Shown in pieces: positions 2,452 to 61,647 of a DNA stretch of 64,000 nt. The notes under the pieces were generated by a model that did no database searches, was not told the origin of the DNA, and saw nothing but the letters and a program-made list of their open reading frames with translations. The stretch's first letter is position 1. Each line of letters begins with the position of its first letter. The stretch covers positions 1-64,000 of the forward strand of contig NZ_CATNVB010000002.1 in assembly GCF_951230165.1 (NCBI RefSeq), read 5' to 3'. This DNA comes from Lentilactobacillus sp. Marseille-Q4993 (GTDB lineage Bacteria; Bacillota; Bacilli; Lactobacillales; Lactobacillaceae). A program made the position numbers and the translations under genes.

Positions 2452-3324
2452 ATGAAAATTGCAATTGTGACTGACAGCACAGCGTATCTTTCTGAAGAAG
2501 AAATCAAAAAATACAATATTACCGTAGTACCAATGCCAGTCATTATTGATGGCAGGGAATATCACGAGGGTGTTGACATTACAACTGAGGAGTTTTATGA
2601 AAAACTCCTCAGTTCCGAATCGTTTCCAAGTACGTCTCAAGCACCGATGGGAGAGATGATCAACGTTTACCAATCTCTTGCTGATCAGGGATATGATACG
2701 GTGATTAGTATTCACTTGGCTAGTACAATTTCCGGAATGCTAAACTCAATCAAACAGTTGGCTCCTACAATTGAGAATATCAAAGTGATTCCATATGATT
2801 CCCAAATTACCGTTAAATTGATGGGTTACCTTGCAATTCAGGCCAGTAAAATGGCCGTTCTCGGAAGAACTCCATCGGAGATCATTAGCTACCTAGATGA
2901 TTTAAGAAGCACAATGGATGAGTTGTTTGTGGTTGATGATCTGCAGAACTTGGTTAGAGGTGGCAGACTTTCTAATGCTTCCGCCTTTATTGGTGGTATT
3001 TTAAAAATCAAACCATTATTGACGTTTGATGATAATAGCCACGAAATCGTTGCCATTGAAAAAATTCGCTCCCGTAAAAAGGCTCTCAAGCGGGTTGAAG
3101 AATTATTCGAAAACGCTAGAAGTAAAGCAACTTATCCGTTAAGAGCGCTTGTCTTGGATGCCAATGATCCTAAGAGCGGTGAAGAATGGGCAGCTAGAAT
3201 TTCCGAACTATATCCTGATATGCCAATTGAGCGTAGTTACTTTGGACCGGAAATTGGTACTCACCTTGGTAATAAGGCTTTAGCCCTTGCTTGGATTCGG
3301 GATTTTGACCAAGATAAACTATAA
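2452..3324 (+). CDS. DegV-family fatty-acid-binding protein (FakB-like)
   Basis: DegV/FakB proteins bind one fatty acid and present it to the kinase FakA, which phosphorylates the carboxylate; the acyl-phosphate then enters phospholipid synthesis through PlsX and PlsY. The 290-residue protein begins MKIAIVTDSTAYLS and has the family motifs STSQAPMGEM and SIHLASTISGMLNS, whose serine/threonine residues contact the fatty-acid head group. A GTG at 2443 would add three residues, but it lies inside the AGGTGG ribosome binding site, so I use the ATG at 2452. FakA, PlsX and PlsY are all encoded in this window. A strong terminator follows. Confidence 0.9.
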   Translation: MKIAIVTDSTAYLSEEEIKKYNITVVPMPVIIDGREYHEGVDITTEEFYEKLLSSESFPSTSQAPMGEMINVYQSLADQGYDTVISIHLASTISGMLNSIKQLAPTIENIKVIPYDSQITVKLMGYLAIQASKMAVLGRTPSEIISYLDDLRSTMDELFVVDDLQNLVRGGRLSNASAFIGGILKIKPLLTFDDNSHEIVAIEKIRSRKKALKRVEELFENARSKATYPLRALVLDANDPKSGEEWAARISELYPDMPIERSYFGPEIGTHLGNKALALAWIRDFDQDKL

Positions 3325-3342
3325 TCATATATATTAAACACG

Positions 3343-3394
3343 AACAATAAACTCACTATTTCAACAGATATCAGTGATTTTGTTGTTTTTTTTA
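3343..3394 (+). terminator. Terminator of marR-degV
   Basis: A 15-bp stem (3343-3357 with 3373-3387, one G-U pair and one mismatch) is followed by a T tract. It isolates degV from the folate region. Confidence 0.85.
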
Positions 3395-3426
3395 TTTTCT
3401 GTGCTAGACTTAATCTTGTATTAAAA

Positions 3427-3567
3427 ATTTGGAGTAGGGAATAACGCGTTAAGTGTCGAAGGAACGGAATGTGAACTTCGGACGAAAAGGTTTTTACCTT
3501 GCGGTGTTATTCTCGCATTCGCTAAATGTTTTGCGCGTTGAAATATTGGTGAACTCCTGCTTAGGAG
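3427..3567 (+). ncRNA. Tetrahydrofolate (THF-I) riboswitch with translational expression platform
   Basis: The leader of folT carries the conserved elements of the THF riboswitch in order: GGAG (3431), GAATAAC (3439-3445), CGCGTTAAGTGT (3445-3456), GGAATGT (3466-3472), GCGGTG (3501-3506) and GTTATTC followed by CGCATTCGCT (3505-3521). GAATAAC pairs with GTTATTC to form P1. Downstream, CTCCT (3554-3558) pairs with the folT Shine-Dalgarno AGGAG (3563-3567) over a 4-base loop and would block ribosome binding. Known THF riboswitches repress folate genes when tetrahydrofolate is abundant. The aptamer ends near 3527 and the rest is the platform. Confidence 0.9.
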
Positions 3568-3572
3568 ATGTC

Positions 3573-4115
3573 ATGATCATGAAGACAGCTAGTTTAGGTT
3601 TTACCAAGTTAAGAACGGTCGATATCGTTATGCTTGGATTATTGATGGCCCTTGGGTTAATTGTGGCAAAGTTTAATGTTGGCACTGAGTTTATTAGGTT
3701 AAACTTTGCATTTGTAATTACGGCAATTATGGCGTATTGGTACGGTCCGACTTGGGCGGGAACCATTGCTGCAATTAGTGATATTTTGGGTACGCTGATT
3801 GCAGGAACGACTTACTTCCCAGGTTTTACACTATCCGCTGTCCTGGGCGCTGTTTTGTATGGTATTTTTCTTTATGACAGAAAAGTATCCATTAAGAACG
3901 TTGTAGTTTCACAGCTGATCATCGCAGTGTTCGTAAATACAGTATTGAACACTCTATGGCTAACCGTGTTGTACAAGACACCGTTTGTTTCACTATTACC
4001 ACTTAGACTTGCTAAGGAGTTGCTGGTTACTCCAATTCAAATGATTATTATTTGGATTGTTTTAAACCTACCTCAATTTAAGCAAATCACCAATCGGTTA
4101 TTTTTAAATAGATAA
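3573..4115 (+). CDS. folT: Folate-specific ECF transporter substrate-binding subunit FolT
   Basis: FolT is the S component that binds folate in the membrane and associates with the shared energy-coupling module (EcfA, EcfA', EcfT) encoded elsewhere. The 180-residue protein is almost entirely hydrophobic, with about six membrane spans. It contains the family-typical stretches RLNFAFVITAIMAYWYGP and FPGFTLSAVLGAVLYG, and RLAKELLVTPIQ near the end. The start at 3573 is fixed by AGGAG at 3563-3567; the frame stays open upstream to 3453, but that part is the riboswitch. A second in-frame ATG at 3579 is possible. Control by the riboswitch supports folate rather than another vitamin as substrate. 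Confidence 0.93.
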   Translation: MIMKTASLGFTKLRTVDIVMLGLLMALGLIVAKFNVGTEFIRLNFAFVITAIMAYWYGPTWAGTIAAISDILGTLIAGTTYFPGFTLSAVLGAVLYGIFLYDRKVSIKNVVVSQLIIAVFVNTVLNTLWLTVLYKTPFVSLLPLRLAKELLVTPIQMIIIWIVLNLPQFKQITNRLFLNR

Positions 4116-4116
4116 T

Positions 4117-4175
4117 AAAACAGCAAACACGGGTACTCCAGTATATGGACGTAAGTACCTGTGCTTGCTGTTTTT
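4117..4175 (+). terminator. Terminator / attenuator between folT and folB
   Basis: A long imperfect stem (4117-4137 with 4154-4174) ends in TTTTT, 17 bases before folB. It should end most folT transcripts. As no clear promoter lies between it and folB, read-through may feed the synthesis genes. Confidence 0.8.
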
Positions 4176-4191
4176 AATTTTGGAGGAAACT

Positions 4192-4539
4192 ATGTATTAT
4201 ATTAGACTTAATAATTTGAGATTTCATAGTCATCTGGGAGTGTTACCTGAGGAAAAAGTGGTTGGACAGAACATTGAAATTGACGTTGAAATTAAGGTAA
4301 ATGCCACGGTAAGTAACGATGATATCACAACTACAGTTAGTTACGCGGACATGCCAAAAATTATTCAATCAATAGTGACTGAGTCTAGGGTAAATTTGCT
4401 TGAAACGTTGGCTCAGACAATCATCGATCGACTAAAAGCGACTGACAGCAGAATAGCTGGCATTCGTGTTAAAATTAGAAAACAAAATTTACCATTAGAC
4501 GTTGGACTAGATAACGTTGAAATTGAGGTGAGCGACTAA
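4192..4539 (+). CDS. folB: Dihydroneopterin aldolase
   Basis: FolB cleaves 7,8-dihydroneopterin to 6-hydroxymethyl-7,8-dihydropterin and glycolaldehyde in folate synthesis. The 115-residue protein has the family start YYIRLNNLRFHSHLGVLPEE, with Glu and His residues of the pterin pocket, and ETLAQTIIDRL in the second half. GGAGG precedes the ATG at 4192 by 6 bases. An upstream in-frame start at 4165 lies in the terminator T tract and is unlikely. The TAA stop directly abuts the ATG of the next gene, so translation is probably coupled. Confidence 0.95.
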   Translation: MYYIRLNNLRFHSHLGVLPEEKVVGQNIEIDVEIKVNATVSNDDITTTVSYADMPKIIQSIVTESRVNLLETLAQTIIDRLKATDSRIAGIRVKIRKQNLPLDVGLDNVEIEVSD

Positions 4540-5616
4540 ATGCAAGATAACATTATTCTCAGCCTAGGAAGTAATATGGGCAATCGAGAAGCGTTTTTAG
4601 ATAGTGCCATTAATGCAATTGGCAACAATCCCAGGATTATGATTGTTAGTCAATCTAGTTATTATGAAACTACTCCCGTTGGTGAAATTAAGCAGGCGAA
4701 TTTTATCAACGCTGCAGTTAATATCTCAACTACAATGACGCCCTTAGATTTGCTTGCAACTATTAACCAAATTGAACAAGATTTTCATCGTAAGCGTGAT
4801 GTTCACTGGGGACCAAGAACACTAGACATTGATATCATTTTTTGGGGAACCCAACAGATTAACGAAGATAATTTAGTGGTACCACACCCAGAAGCATTTA
4901 ATCGGTTGTTTGTTTTGGCTCCTGCATCAGAGGTATTACCAAAGGAATTTGCATATTACAATCAGATTGAGTCGACTATTAACTCGCTAAAAGAGCACAC
5001 AAACCAACAATTCAGTAAAATTGCTTTGGAACATCATCATTCAGAGCAAATTCAGGCTAGTGTTAGGACTATTTTAGCAGCTATCGGGGACGATCCTGAT
5101 CGGGCGGGACTGCTTGAGACCCCGTTACGGGTTGCAAAAATGAGTGATGAAATTTTCAGTTCTACTGGGCAAAGTAACTTCACTGATTATAAACTATTTC
5201 AAACAGATGAATCATCTAGTTCAAATATGGTTATGATGAGAAATATTCCGTTTTATTCAATGTGTGAACATCATATGATGCCATTTTTTGGCAAAGTTCA
5301 CGTGGCTTATATCCCAAATAATGGCAAGATTATTGGGTTAAGTAAAATCCCGAGATTAGTGGATTTTGTAACCCACAAGTTAGGCCTCCAAGAGAAAGTA
5401 ACTAGTGATATTCTTTCTCAACTCAATCAAATTCTTGAACCAAAAGGCGTTGCTGTGGTTGTTGATGCTCGCCATATGTGTGTTGAAATGCGGGGCGTAA
5501 AAAAAGCTGATTCTACAACTAGAACTTTTAGCTTTTCTGGTCAATTTGAAAATGATAATATTATAAAATCTGAGTTTCTAAACTCAATTGGTGATTTAAA
5601 TGACCAATCATTATAG
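4540..5616 (+). CDS. folKE: Bifunctional FolK-FolE fusion (HPPK + GTP cyclohydrolase I)
   Basis: One 358-residue protein joins two folate enzymes. Residues 1-160 are 6-hydroxymethyl-7,8-dihydropterin pyrophosphokinase: ILSLGSNMGNRE at the start, and RTLDIDII at 93-100 with Asp95 and Asp97 as magnesium ligands. Residues 165-340 are GTP cyclohydrolase I: zinc ligands Cys242 and His245 in MCEHHMMPF and Cys314 in RHMCVEMRG. FolE makes dihydroneopterin triphosphate, the first pathway step, and FolK pyrophosphorylates the pterin just before FolP. The same fusion is known from Lactococcus lactis. The gene starts right after the folB stop and overlaps folC by 17 bases. Confidence 0.96.
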   Translation: MQDNIILSLGSNMGNREAFLDSAINAIGNNPRIMIVSQSSYYETTPVGEIKQANFINAAVNISTTMTPLDLLATINQIEQDFHRKRDVHWGPRTLDIDIIFWGTQQINEDNLVVPHPEAFNRLFVLAPASEVLPKEFAYYNQIESTINSLKEHTNQQFSKIALEHHHSEQIQASVRTILAAIGDDPDRAGLLETPLRVAKMSDEIFSSTGQSNFTDYKLFQTDESSSSNMVMMRNIPFYSMCEHHMMPFFGKVHVAYIPNNGKIIGLSKIPRLVDFVTHKLGLQEKVTSDILSQLNQILEPKGVAVVVDARHMCVEMRGVKKADSTTRTFSFSGQFENDNIIKSEFLNSIGDLNDQSL

Positions 5617-6880
5617 CGAAATCCCAGAAGGTTCTTTGTATAACCAGGGAGATCGGATTGGATTACTGAAAAAAGTTCTAAGTGAGCTGGGTAATCAAGA
5701 CCGACAATTTAAGATAATTCACGTTTGTGGGACTAACGGAAAGGGCTCCACGGCAACCATGATTGCTAAAATATTAGCAGAATTGGGTGATAAAGTTGGC
5801 TTATTTATGAGCCCCGTTGTCGGACCACGTAACAGCGATATCTGCATTAATTTTGAATCGATATCGAATCGAGAAGTTAGAAATATTGAACACCGTGTCA
5901 ATAATTTGCCAGCCTTAAAATCTGGCGATAAAAGGTTGTCACCCTTTGAAATGAGAGTAATTGTTGCAATTCTCTATTTTGCCTCAGGCGGGGTCGATTT
6001 CGCCGTCCTGGAATGTGGCTTAGGTGGCGAATTAGATGCAACTAATGCAGTTTTTACAACAATGTATTCAATTTTTACTCCAATTAGCCTGGATCATCTA
6101 GGCATATTAGGTGATACGCTAGCAGAAATTGCCACGGCAAAGGCAAAAATCATTCGTCCTAGCAACACAACCATTGTGGCTCCGAGTGAACCGGGAGTGG
6201 TTCAGTCTATAATTAGAAAAGAGGCCCTAGACAAGGGGTCGACTCTGATAATGGCTGATTCAATTGCTGTTACTAAAAACGGTAACAAGGTATCAGCAAC
6301 GTTTGGTGATACCAATTATGAATTCAAGTTTGGCTTAAGTGGCAACTATCAACAAACTAATTTAAGAACTGTGCTTGCTTGGTTTATGAATTTTATCGAC
6401 CGTCATTCTATTTCACAGGGTCCTCAGACTTTATTATCCAAAGCTTTAGGTGATTTAATGATTCCTGGCCGATTTGAAGAAATAAACAATACTCCAAAGA
6501 TAATCGTTGACGGGGCTCATAATCCAGATGGCATTAGCTCCTTCAAGGAAACTGTTAGCAATGAGTTCATAACGCATGAGCTTATCATAGTTGTTGGCTT
6601 TTTGAAGGATAAAAACTATGTTAAATCAATGGCGGAACTAGCAACACTTAATAATCCCAGATTTGTCATAACTCAACCAATCAATGACAATAGAGCGTTA
6701 GCGGTTGGTACATTAGCGGAAACGGCCACTAACTTAGGCATGAAAATCGCTGGCAAAGAGTCTAACCCCCGTCATGCTATAGATAAAGCAATCAGTTTAG
6801 CGGAAGCAAACACCACCATATTTTGCGTTGGGTCATTTTACTTAATTAACCCAATTAGAGATTACATTTTAAACAAATAG
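5600..6880 (+). CDS. folC: Folylpolyglutamate / dihydrofolate synthase
   Basis: FolC attaches glutamate to dihydropteroate and adds further glutamates to folates, which keeps them in the cell. The 426-residue Mur-ligase-type enzyme has the P-loop HVCGTNGKGSTATMIA near residue 37, LECGLGGELDATN in the middle domain and VDGAHNPDGISSF in the C-terminal domain. Polyglutamylation is needed whether folate is made or imported, so this gene would stay useful even if FolP is lost. Its ATG lies inside the end of folKE. Confidence 0.95.
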   Translation: MTNHYSEIPEGSLYNQGDRIGLLKKVLSELGNQDRQFKIIHVCGTNGKGSTATMIAKILAELGDKVGLFMSPVVGPRNSDICINFESISNREVRNIEHRVNNLPALKSGDKRLSPFEMRVIVAILYFASGGVDFAVLECGLGGELDATNAVFTTMYSIFTPISLDHLGILGDTLAEIATAKAKIIRPSNTTIVAPSEPGVVQSIIRKEALDKGSTLIMADSIAVTKNGNKVSATFGDTNYEFKFGLSGNYQQTNLRTVLAWFMNFIDRHSISQGPQTLLSKALGDLMIPGRFEEINNTPKIIVDGAHNPDGISSFKETVSNEFITHELIIVVGFLKDKNYVKSMAELATLNNPRFVITQPINDNRALAVGTLAETATNLGMKIAGKESNPRHAIDKAISLAEANTTIFCVGSFYLINPIRDYILNK

Positions 6881-6891
6881 GAGGGGTTAAT

Positions 6892-7968
6892 TTGGACGTT
6901 CAACCCATCAACAATAATTTTAATAGTCGTGGCCACCTACAAATATCGATTTCAAACATCGATGATGATCATGGCAATGTCCTAAACTTGCTTAATACAA
7001 GTAATATCAATTACTACAGCATTGGTAAGACATTCGTTATCGATGATAGTAGATCGAAAATTACGAACTTTGCAAAACACTCCACAGCTTTTCCTAAAAT
7101 ATCTCACCAAATAACTAAGATTATCGACTCCAGTAAATTATATTTCACCGGTCGCAACTTTAGTTTTGATATTACCAGCAAACCTTTGATATACTCGATT
7201 TTGAATTTAACCCCAGATTCATTTTATGACGGTGGCGTTAATAACTCAGTTGATGGAGTTCTTCATCGAATTGAAACTGAACTTGAGCAAGGTGCCTCTA
7301 TTTTTGAAGTGGGTGGCAAGTCCTCAAAACCGCATTTTGACGACATAAGTGCTAGTGAAGAATGGAATCGCTTAGTTCCTTATCTAAAGCAGATTCACCG
7401 TGAGTTTCCCAACTTGGTACTTGCAATTGACTCAAACACACCTGAAGTAATGAAGTATGCCCTAGACGATGGGATTCAAATTATAAATGATATCGATGGC
7501 TTTGATTCGAAAGAAAAATTAAATTTGGTGGAACAATATCAACCATCAGTGGTCTCAATGTTTAACGGCCGAAATTTTGACGAGCATCCTGACACATTAA
7601 CTGATACAATGAATGGTTTTTTTGAGCAAAACTTAAAGGACTTGTTATCGACGGGGATTAAACCAGAGAACATCGTTTTGGATCCGGGGGTAGGCTTTTC
7701 TAACCATAATACGTTAACGTTTGATATGATAAAGATGTGATATACAAAGATGATGAATCAGTTTAACGTTCCAATAATGATTGCTATCTCTCGTAAGAGC
7801 TTTTCTAGTCGGCTATTTGACTTAGATAAAGCTGATGACCGCTTGATTCCAACACTACTGTTCGAAACATTGATGACGGTTTTTGGCGGCAGTCTGATCA
7901 GAACTCACGATGTCAAAGAAACTAAGATGCTGATTGATGCTTATGAAGAGATTAAATCTGAACTTTAG
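6892..7968 (+). pseudogene. folP: Dihydropteroate synthase gene interrupted by an in-frame TGA
   Basis: FolP condenses p-aminobenzoate with hydroxymethyl-dihydropterin pyrophosphate. The frame starts at a TTG (6892) behind GGAGGGG and runs 282 codons. It has an N-terminal extension of about 100 residues, as in other lactobacilli, then LNLTPDSFYDGG, EVGGKSS and DPGVGFS. A TGA at 7738-7740 stops it. In the same frame the protein continues at once to 7968 with VPIMIAISRKSF, the conserved SRKS motif, and IRTHDV. No base is gained or lost: this is one nonsense codon. The first fragment lacks the SRKS and RxHD parts of the active site and should be inactive unless the stop is read through. A sequencing error cannot be excluded. 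Confidence 0.88.
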
Positions 7969-61531: not shown

Positions 61532-61647
61532 CTTGTGCACCTCCTTGTATTTTTGCTTAGACTCGCCGAGATAAAGCGCCTCTTATTGCTAAGAAGACTT
61601 TAAAGCTTAAATCGAGCGGTTGTAGCTGTGGAAGCCACAATTACAAC
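61532..61647 (-). ncRNA. L21 leader (putative autoregulatory mRNA structure)
   Basis: The transcript from the promoter at 61654-61682 has about 115 bases before rplU. It holds a strong TGTGG-CTT-CCACA hairpin (near 61627-61639) and further complementary segments. A leader family of this kind is known upstream of rplU in Firmicutes. The assignment rests on position and structure. Confidence 0.6.

Follow-up and report, generated by a model that had tools for sequence, protein, structure and literature searches.

How could the state of a ligand-binding RNA be passed on to the start of the gene behind it? The aptamers of riboswitches are better charted than their expression platforms, and the question is raised by the leader of folT in Lentilactobacillus sp. 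Marseille-Q4993, of which a stretch of 64,000 nucleotides was analysed (contig NZ_CATNVB010000002.1, positions 1 to 64,000 of the forward strand; hereafter the window).

A sequence-only reading of this leader had proposed a two-state translational switch of the tetrahydrofolate (THF) class. In its OFF form, CTCCT pairs with the folT Shine-Dalgarno (SD) sequence AGGAG; in its ON form, GGAGT, which includes part of the 5' strand of P1, takes ACTCC (helix A in what follows), and AACGCG pairs with CGCGTT of the linker. The coordinates and letters of these elements are right (AACGCG lies at 3443-3448, the others are in Table 1), and all the listed pairings exist as letters. Class, target and one half of the switch are borne out by our analysis; the second ON pairing, AACGCG:CGCGTT, is not. 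We propose, with a probability of about 70%, that a class I THF riboswitch (THF-I) represses translation of folT and that without THF both strands of its P1 helix re-pair downstream, freeing the SD. The useful addition, as judged from the sequences compared, is a pairing absent from the earlier reading, helix B, which is the best supported alternative pairing, together with a single receiver strand to which both P1 strands appear to be fitted.

The aptamer and the folate genes

A covariance-model search, which had been suggested with the earlier reading, returned a match to THF-I (Rfam RF01831) at 83.6 bits (E 7.2e-18), well over the gathering score of 36. The alignment is full length (model positions 1-99), comprising P1, P2, P3 and P4, and there is no second RF01831 match in the window's genome at E <= 0.001. 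Directly 3' of the aptamer lies folT, the S component of a folate ECF transporter, which has an alternative in-frame ATG at 3573; folB, a folK-folE fusion, folC and folP follow, so the aptamer stands upstream of folate genes, as THF-I aptamers should. The assignment as a THF riboswitch of folT is thus confirmed: a known class is at its expected place, and there is nothing unusual in finding a THF riboswitch before folT in a lactic acid bacterium. Its control perhaps also reaches the folate genes behind folT.

Table 1. Positions of the leader elements and of the genes behind them in the window.
Feature	Positions	Strand	Basis or remark
THF-I riboswitch aptamer	3428..3526	+	Rfam RF01831
P1 5' strand	3428..3432	+	Pairs with 3522-3526 in ligand-bound form; model alignment, 42-genus swap test
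P1 3' strand	3522..3526	+	Model alignment
Helix A 5' side, GGAGT	3431..3435	+	3431-3432 common to P1; 42-genus swap test
Helix B 5' side, TCGCTAA	3519..3525	+	3522-3525 common to P1; swap test, genus leaders, RNAalifold
CGCGTT	3534..3539	+	In predicted A+B state, loop (3533-3539) of helix-B hairpin
Helix B 3' side, TTGGTGA	3546..3552	+	Abuts helix A without gap; folding, swap test, RNAalifold
Helix A 3' side, ACTCC	3553..3557	+	Overlaps anti-SD; folding, swap test
Anti-SD, CTCCT	3554..3558	+	Hairpin with 3563-3567
folT SD, AGGAG	3563..3567	+	Window letters; GGAGATG invariant in 22 aligned genus leaders
folT	3579..4115	+	TIGR04518, 108 bits; start aligned in genus leaders is 3579
folB	4195-4539	+	Downstream folate gene
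folK-folE fusion	4540-5616	+	Downstream folate gene
folC	5600-6880	+	Downstream folate gene
folP	6892-7740	+	Downstream folate gene; in-frame stop

Three further features of the window were recorded. In folP (dihydropteroate synthase), the in-frame stop occupies 7738-7740, the frame stays open beyond it to about 7965, and the profile match before the stop covers 2-182 of 258; the interruption would reflect a pseudogene, variation between strains or an error of sequencing. An ATG directly after the SD opens a two-codon frame (3568-3576) whose stop TGA overlaps the ATG at 3573 (ATGTCATGA); having no spacing to the SD, this frame is probably due to chance. Elsewhere, a ribosomal protein L21 leader (RF00559, 61.1 bits) lies at 61549-61631 on the minus strand.

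The riboswitch is widespread among relatives. With the window's own genome included in each count, RF01831 was present in 24/24 Lentilactobacillus genomes searched, in 140/201 genomes of the family, in 99/148 of the order and in 45/199 of a phylum-wide draw.

Comparison across leaders

Singly, the pairings of the window do not go beyond chance. Among 2000 dinucleotide shuffles of its linker, helix B was matched by a chance helix in 129, GGAGT:ACTCC in 295 and the 8-bp form of AACGCG:CGCGTT in 296, and the decision therefore rests on comparison with relatives.

We gathered the stretch from aptamer to start codon from 158 family leaders and from 27 of 28 further order-level loci (L174 was not parsed), the latter coming from 99 genomes with a match. 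Ten family leaders had no SD anchor by script, and six more (L040, L060, L119, L103, L121 and L133) were removed because their anchor was misplaced or their platform a different one, leaving 142; L060 has the layout described below by eye, and its removal did not favour the model. In the swap test, the own strand pair of each leader was scored against strands exchanged between genera, using one leader per genus and no tree, and the genera are not independent. The order-wide test comprised 169 leaders from 42 genera in 5 families, and the family test 142 leaders from 27 genera.

Most leaders show, by eye, a recurrent layout: the 3' P1 strand is followed by a linker that varies in length and a complement of that strand, close behind which come a complement of its 5' counterpart, a short loop and finally the SD. 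In most anchored leaders the 5'-P1-complementary block overlaps the anti-SD, again by eye. The layout is absent or not anchored in genera g5 and g17, most of g6 and three leaders of g33. Some hairpin at the SD was found by script in 148/158 family leaders, six of which were later dropped; in a few others (L027, L037, L055, L134 and L137) the script had chosen an arm other than CTCC. The OFF hairpin of the earlier reading thus recurs in relatives, and it appears in the folding of the window, in RNAalifold and in the family leaders.

Over 42 genera, each of the three helices fits its own leader better than swapped strands do. Helix B scored 13.17 own against 10.79 swapped (z 6.6, 0/5000 permutations) and helix A 11.40 against 10.42 (z 5.8, 0/5000), next to 8.05 against 6.36 for P1 itself, which served as a control (z 6.4, 0/5000). 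Inside the family, helix B remained at 0/2000, its own pairing being better in 26/27 genera, and at 1/5000 with genus g12 removed; helix A was weaker there (14/2000). Negative controls gave 2472/5000 for the 5' P1 strand with the B block and 1142/5000 for the 3' P1 strand with the anti-SD, both in the family. A table of helix-B pair types was left out as a test, its registers having been picked by best fit. Within the genus, helix B has 6-7 bp in 23/24 leaders and 3 bp in L002, and its changes are one-sided only. Given 22 of these 24 leaders (L022 and L024 were left out as near-duplicates of L021 and L023) and no structure, RNAalifold returned helix B together with the SD hairpin, and no P1. 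Taken together, helices A and B are a conserved pairing, fitted to its own leader, that would compete with the OFF form and free the SD.

Three genomes of one genus carry two THF riboswitches each (G122 with L083/L110, G147 with L060/L118 and G170 with L053/L113). The P1 strands of the two copies differ, and for each a fitting receiver strand is seen by eye, with wobble pairs in the fit of L083.

Is helix A more than a by-product of the aptamer?

The earlier reading had the 5' P1 strand compete for the anti-SD through GGAGT:ACTCC, and this competition recurs, as the order-wide swap test indicates. An unlikely but not negligible alternative is that helix A arises incidentally: since GAGUAG is needed by the aptamer, the GGAG of the 5' P1 strand would match any anti-SD; only helix B would then compete with P1, and the output would arise otherwise, for example by how stable the SD hairpin is or how it is spaced. 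Such a reading accounts for the rarity of helix A in the free ensemble (mean 0.09) and for the null result of a wider-window swap test inside the family (2885/5000, and 4897/5000 without g6, g18, g19 and g22). The choice of window matters for the test of helix A, and we keep the helix despite this null since the narrow order-wide test is positive.

The anti-SD also follows P1 where the SD keeps GGAG, which speaks against an incidental match. Among the 169 leaders, the 5' P1 base and the anti-SD base that tracks it form G/C in 122, A/U in 24, G/U in 5, A/C in 13 and another combination in 5; 12 of the 13 A/C leaders have AGGGU, which is able to pair with ACCCU in a shifted register. Where P1 has AGAGU (n=28), CUCU occurs in 24 leaders and CUCC in none, whereas leaders with GGAGU or GGGGU in P1 have CUCC in 118 cases and CUCU in 5, even though CUCU pairs less well than CUCC with the GGAG of the SD. 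This tracking is, at the level of sequence, the strongest sign for helix A.

A sample beyond the order points the same way. The phylum draw added 29 new loci from its 45 genomes with a match; with L212 not parsed and two leaders lacking an SD by script, 26 leaders in 24 genera were tested. The 5' P1 strand again had a downstream partner of its own (own 13.33, swapped 12.66, 1/5000; maximum with shuffled downstream sequence 11.50 in 200), which argues against an incidental helix A. Helix B found no support in these 24 genera (own 11.25, swapped 11.19, 2125/5000).

The proposed second ON helix

The other half of the earlier ON state, in which the 5' strand of P1 and P2 invades the linker through GGAGU:ACUCC and AACGCG:CGCGUU, owes its appeal to the window itself, where both pairings exist in antiparallel order. 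Had the earlier reading been right, relatives would keep both competing pairings; GGAGT:ACTCC is kept and AACGCG:CGCGTT is not. CGCGTT is absent from the linkers of the other 23 genus leaders, and elsewhere in the genus the best matches of P2 to the linker are 3-6 bp with scores of at most 12, the window's own match having 8 bp and a score of 18. AACGCG:CGCGTT shows no covariation and no preference for its own leader: swapped strands scored at or above own in 4520/5000 permutations over 42 genera (own 9.40, swapped 9.72, z -1.3), and the test inside the family gave 1827/2000. The co-folding suggested with the earlier reading returned the anti-SD:SD hairpin and gave AACGCG:CGCGTT a probability of 0.000 in the free ensemble; the ON state containing it lies 8.4-8.7 kcal/mol above A+B, a cost that arises because P2 must break. 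We therefore regard invasion by P1 and P2 as very improbable, and CGCGTT is not a switch element.

Folding and energetics

The proposal that both P1 strands re-pair downstream has its weak point in the energetics, the folding, as modelled without a ligand, pseudoknot or co-transcriptional term, giving no clean switch. For the window RNA 3427-3600, A+B lies at -44.5, the free minimum at -44.9 and the form with P1 forced at -41.0 kcal/mol. In the free ensemble of this RNA, P1 has a probability no higher than about 0.001; the six pairs tabulated for helix B have 0.29-0.89 and helix A has 0.38-0.47, the last falling to 0.05 in a shorter RNA. When the RNA was ended at 3590, the P1 state came to lie 0.2-0.4 kcal/mol below A+B. 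A structure with helix B and the SD hairpin ranged from 1.7 kcal/mol below A+B to 0.2 above it across six settings, and allowing coaxial stacking (dangles=3) shifted A+B by 0.3-0.5 kcal/mol, giving no decision between A+B and helix B with the SD hairpin.

In the 142 family leaders, the mean pair probability without ligand is 0.69 for helix B and 0.09 for helix A. Pairing of the SD averages 0.88 in the free form and 0.95 once P1 is imposed; the constraint added more than 0.1 to it in 37 leaders and reduced it in 8. Even imposing both helices on the window RNA that ends at 3600 leaves the SD 0.78 paired, now with bases downstream. Since the SD is largely paired in the folding even without ligand, A+B as the ligand-free ON state is something that we infer; stacking, the co-transcriptional order of folding or the ribosome could tip the balance towards it.

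These values also lend themselves to a reading with a constitutive SD hairpin, in which the main action of the riboswitch is on transcription or RNA stability, the SD being predicted as mostly paired in both forms. We consider this improbable, given that nothing like a terminator turned up in a consensus scan of 3300-4220, a result that fits control of translation, and that, by eye, most anchored leaders have the 5'-P1 complement overlapping the anti-SD. A translational output of the folT riboswitch thus fits what was found and appears the better reading.

A possible divergent platform in one genus

In three of the six THF leaders of one Lactobacillaceae genus (g33; L103, L121 and L133), a strong hairpin resembling an intrinsic terminator has the 3' P1 strand at its base and a run of at least six T behind it. 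Its folding energy is -26.7 to -30.7 kcal/mol, and -12.9 to -16.1 once the P1 bases are blocked; the hairpins lie upstream of folT in the two of the three that were checked. If the terminators are real, ligand binding would favour read-through, opposite to the usual sense; in L133 a hairpin reaches the T run even when the P1 bases are blocked, which counts against such an inversion.

A broader reading, which we offer tentatively and with the odds against it, is that a single homologous platform, as yet undescribed, is common to the THF-I riboswitches of Lactobacillales. Its receiver halves would co-evolve with both P1 strands, its anti-SD would follow the aptamer even when pairing with the SD weakens, and at least one genus would have rewired the hand-over of the 3' P1 strand into an intrinsic terminator, inverting the response so that ligand turns expression ON.

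Proposed mechanism

Binding of ligand stabilises P1 in the THF-I class, according to the portions of the source consulted (PMC11477058). With THF or a derivative bound, P1 would be closed, neither of its strands would be free, and helices A and B would be barred; the anti-SD CUCCU would then pair with the SD AGGAG, the OFF state. When THF is scarce, P1 would open and both strands would pair with adjacent halves of 5'-UUGGUGA-ACUCC-3', the 3' P1 strand taking UUGGUGA in helix B and the 5' P1 strand ACUCC in helix A. The two abutting helices could stack end to end, leaving the anti-SD occupied and the SD free, the ON state. The comparison suggests that both strands of one sensor helix may be handed to one downstream stretch of RNA. 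If both are indeed fitted to their own receiver strand, this would reveal how aptamer and output co-evolve, and a platform comparable over 42 genera would make the switch step of THF-I testable by mutation.

Comparison with known systems

In sequence and structure the aptamer agrees with THF-I over the full model, a folate transport gene lies downstream as in that class, and no difference was seen in the aptamer itself, which is predicted to bind THF. For a platform in which both P1 strands re-pair to one downstream strand, no description was found in the parts of the literature searched, a scope that does not extend to the original work on the class (Ames 2010; Trausch 2011, 2014; Huang 2011; Wilt 2021), and we do not claim it as new.

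Two known systems come close, as far as the sections of the cited sources consulted describe them. THF-II (the folE motif) shares the THF ligand and has likewise been proposed to be a translational OFF switch that controls the ribosome-binding site (PMC6800512, PMC9881143). In THF-II that site is part of the aptamer's own P1, whereas in the folT leader a separate downstream anti-SD would close the SD. Strand exchange between aptamer and expression platform is described for the Bacillus subtilis yxjA purine riboswitch and for fluoride riboswitches (PMC9756952, PMC13273304), and the same kind of exchange is proposed here. Those systems act on transcription, whereas in the folT leader both P1 strands would be handed over and the output would be the SD.
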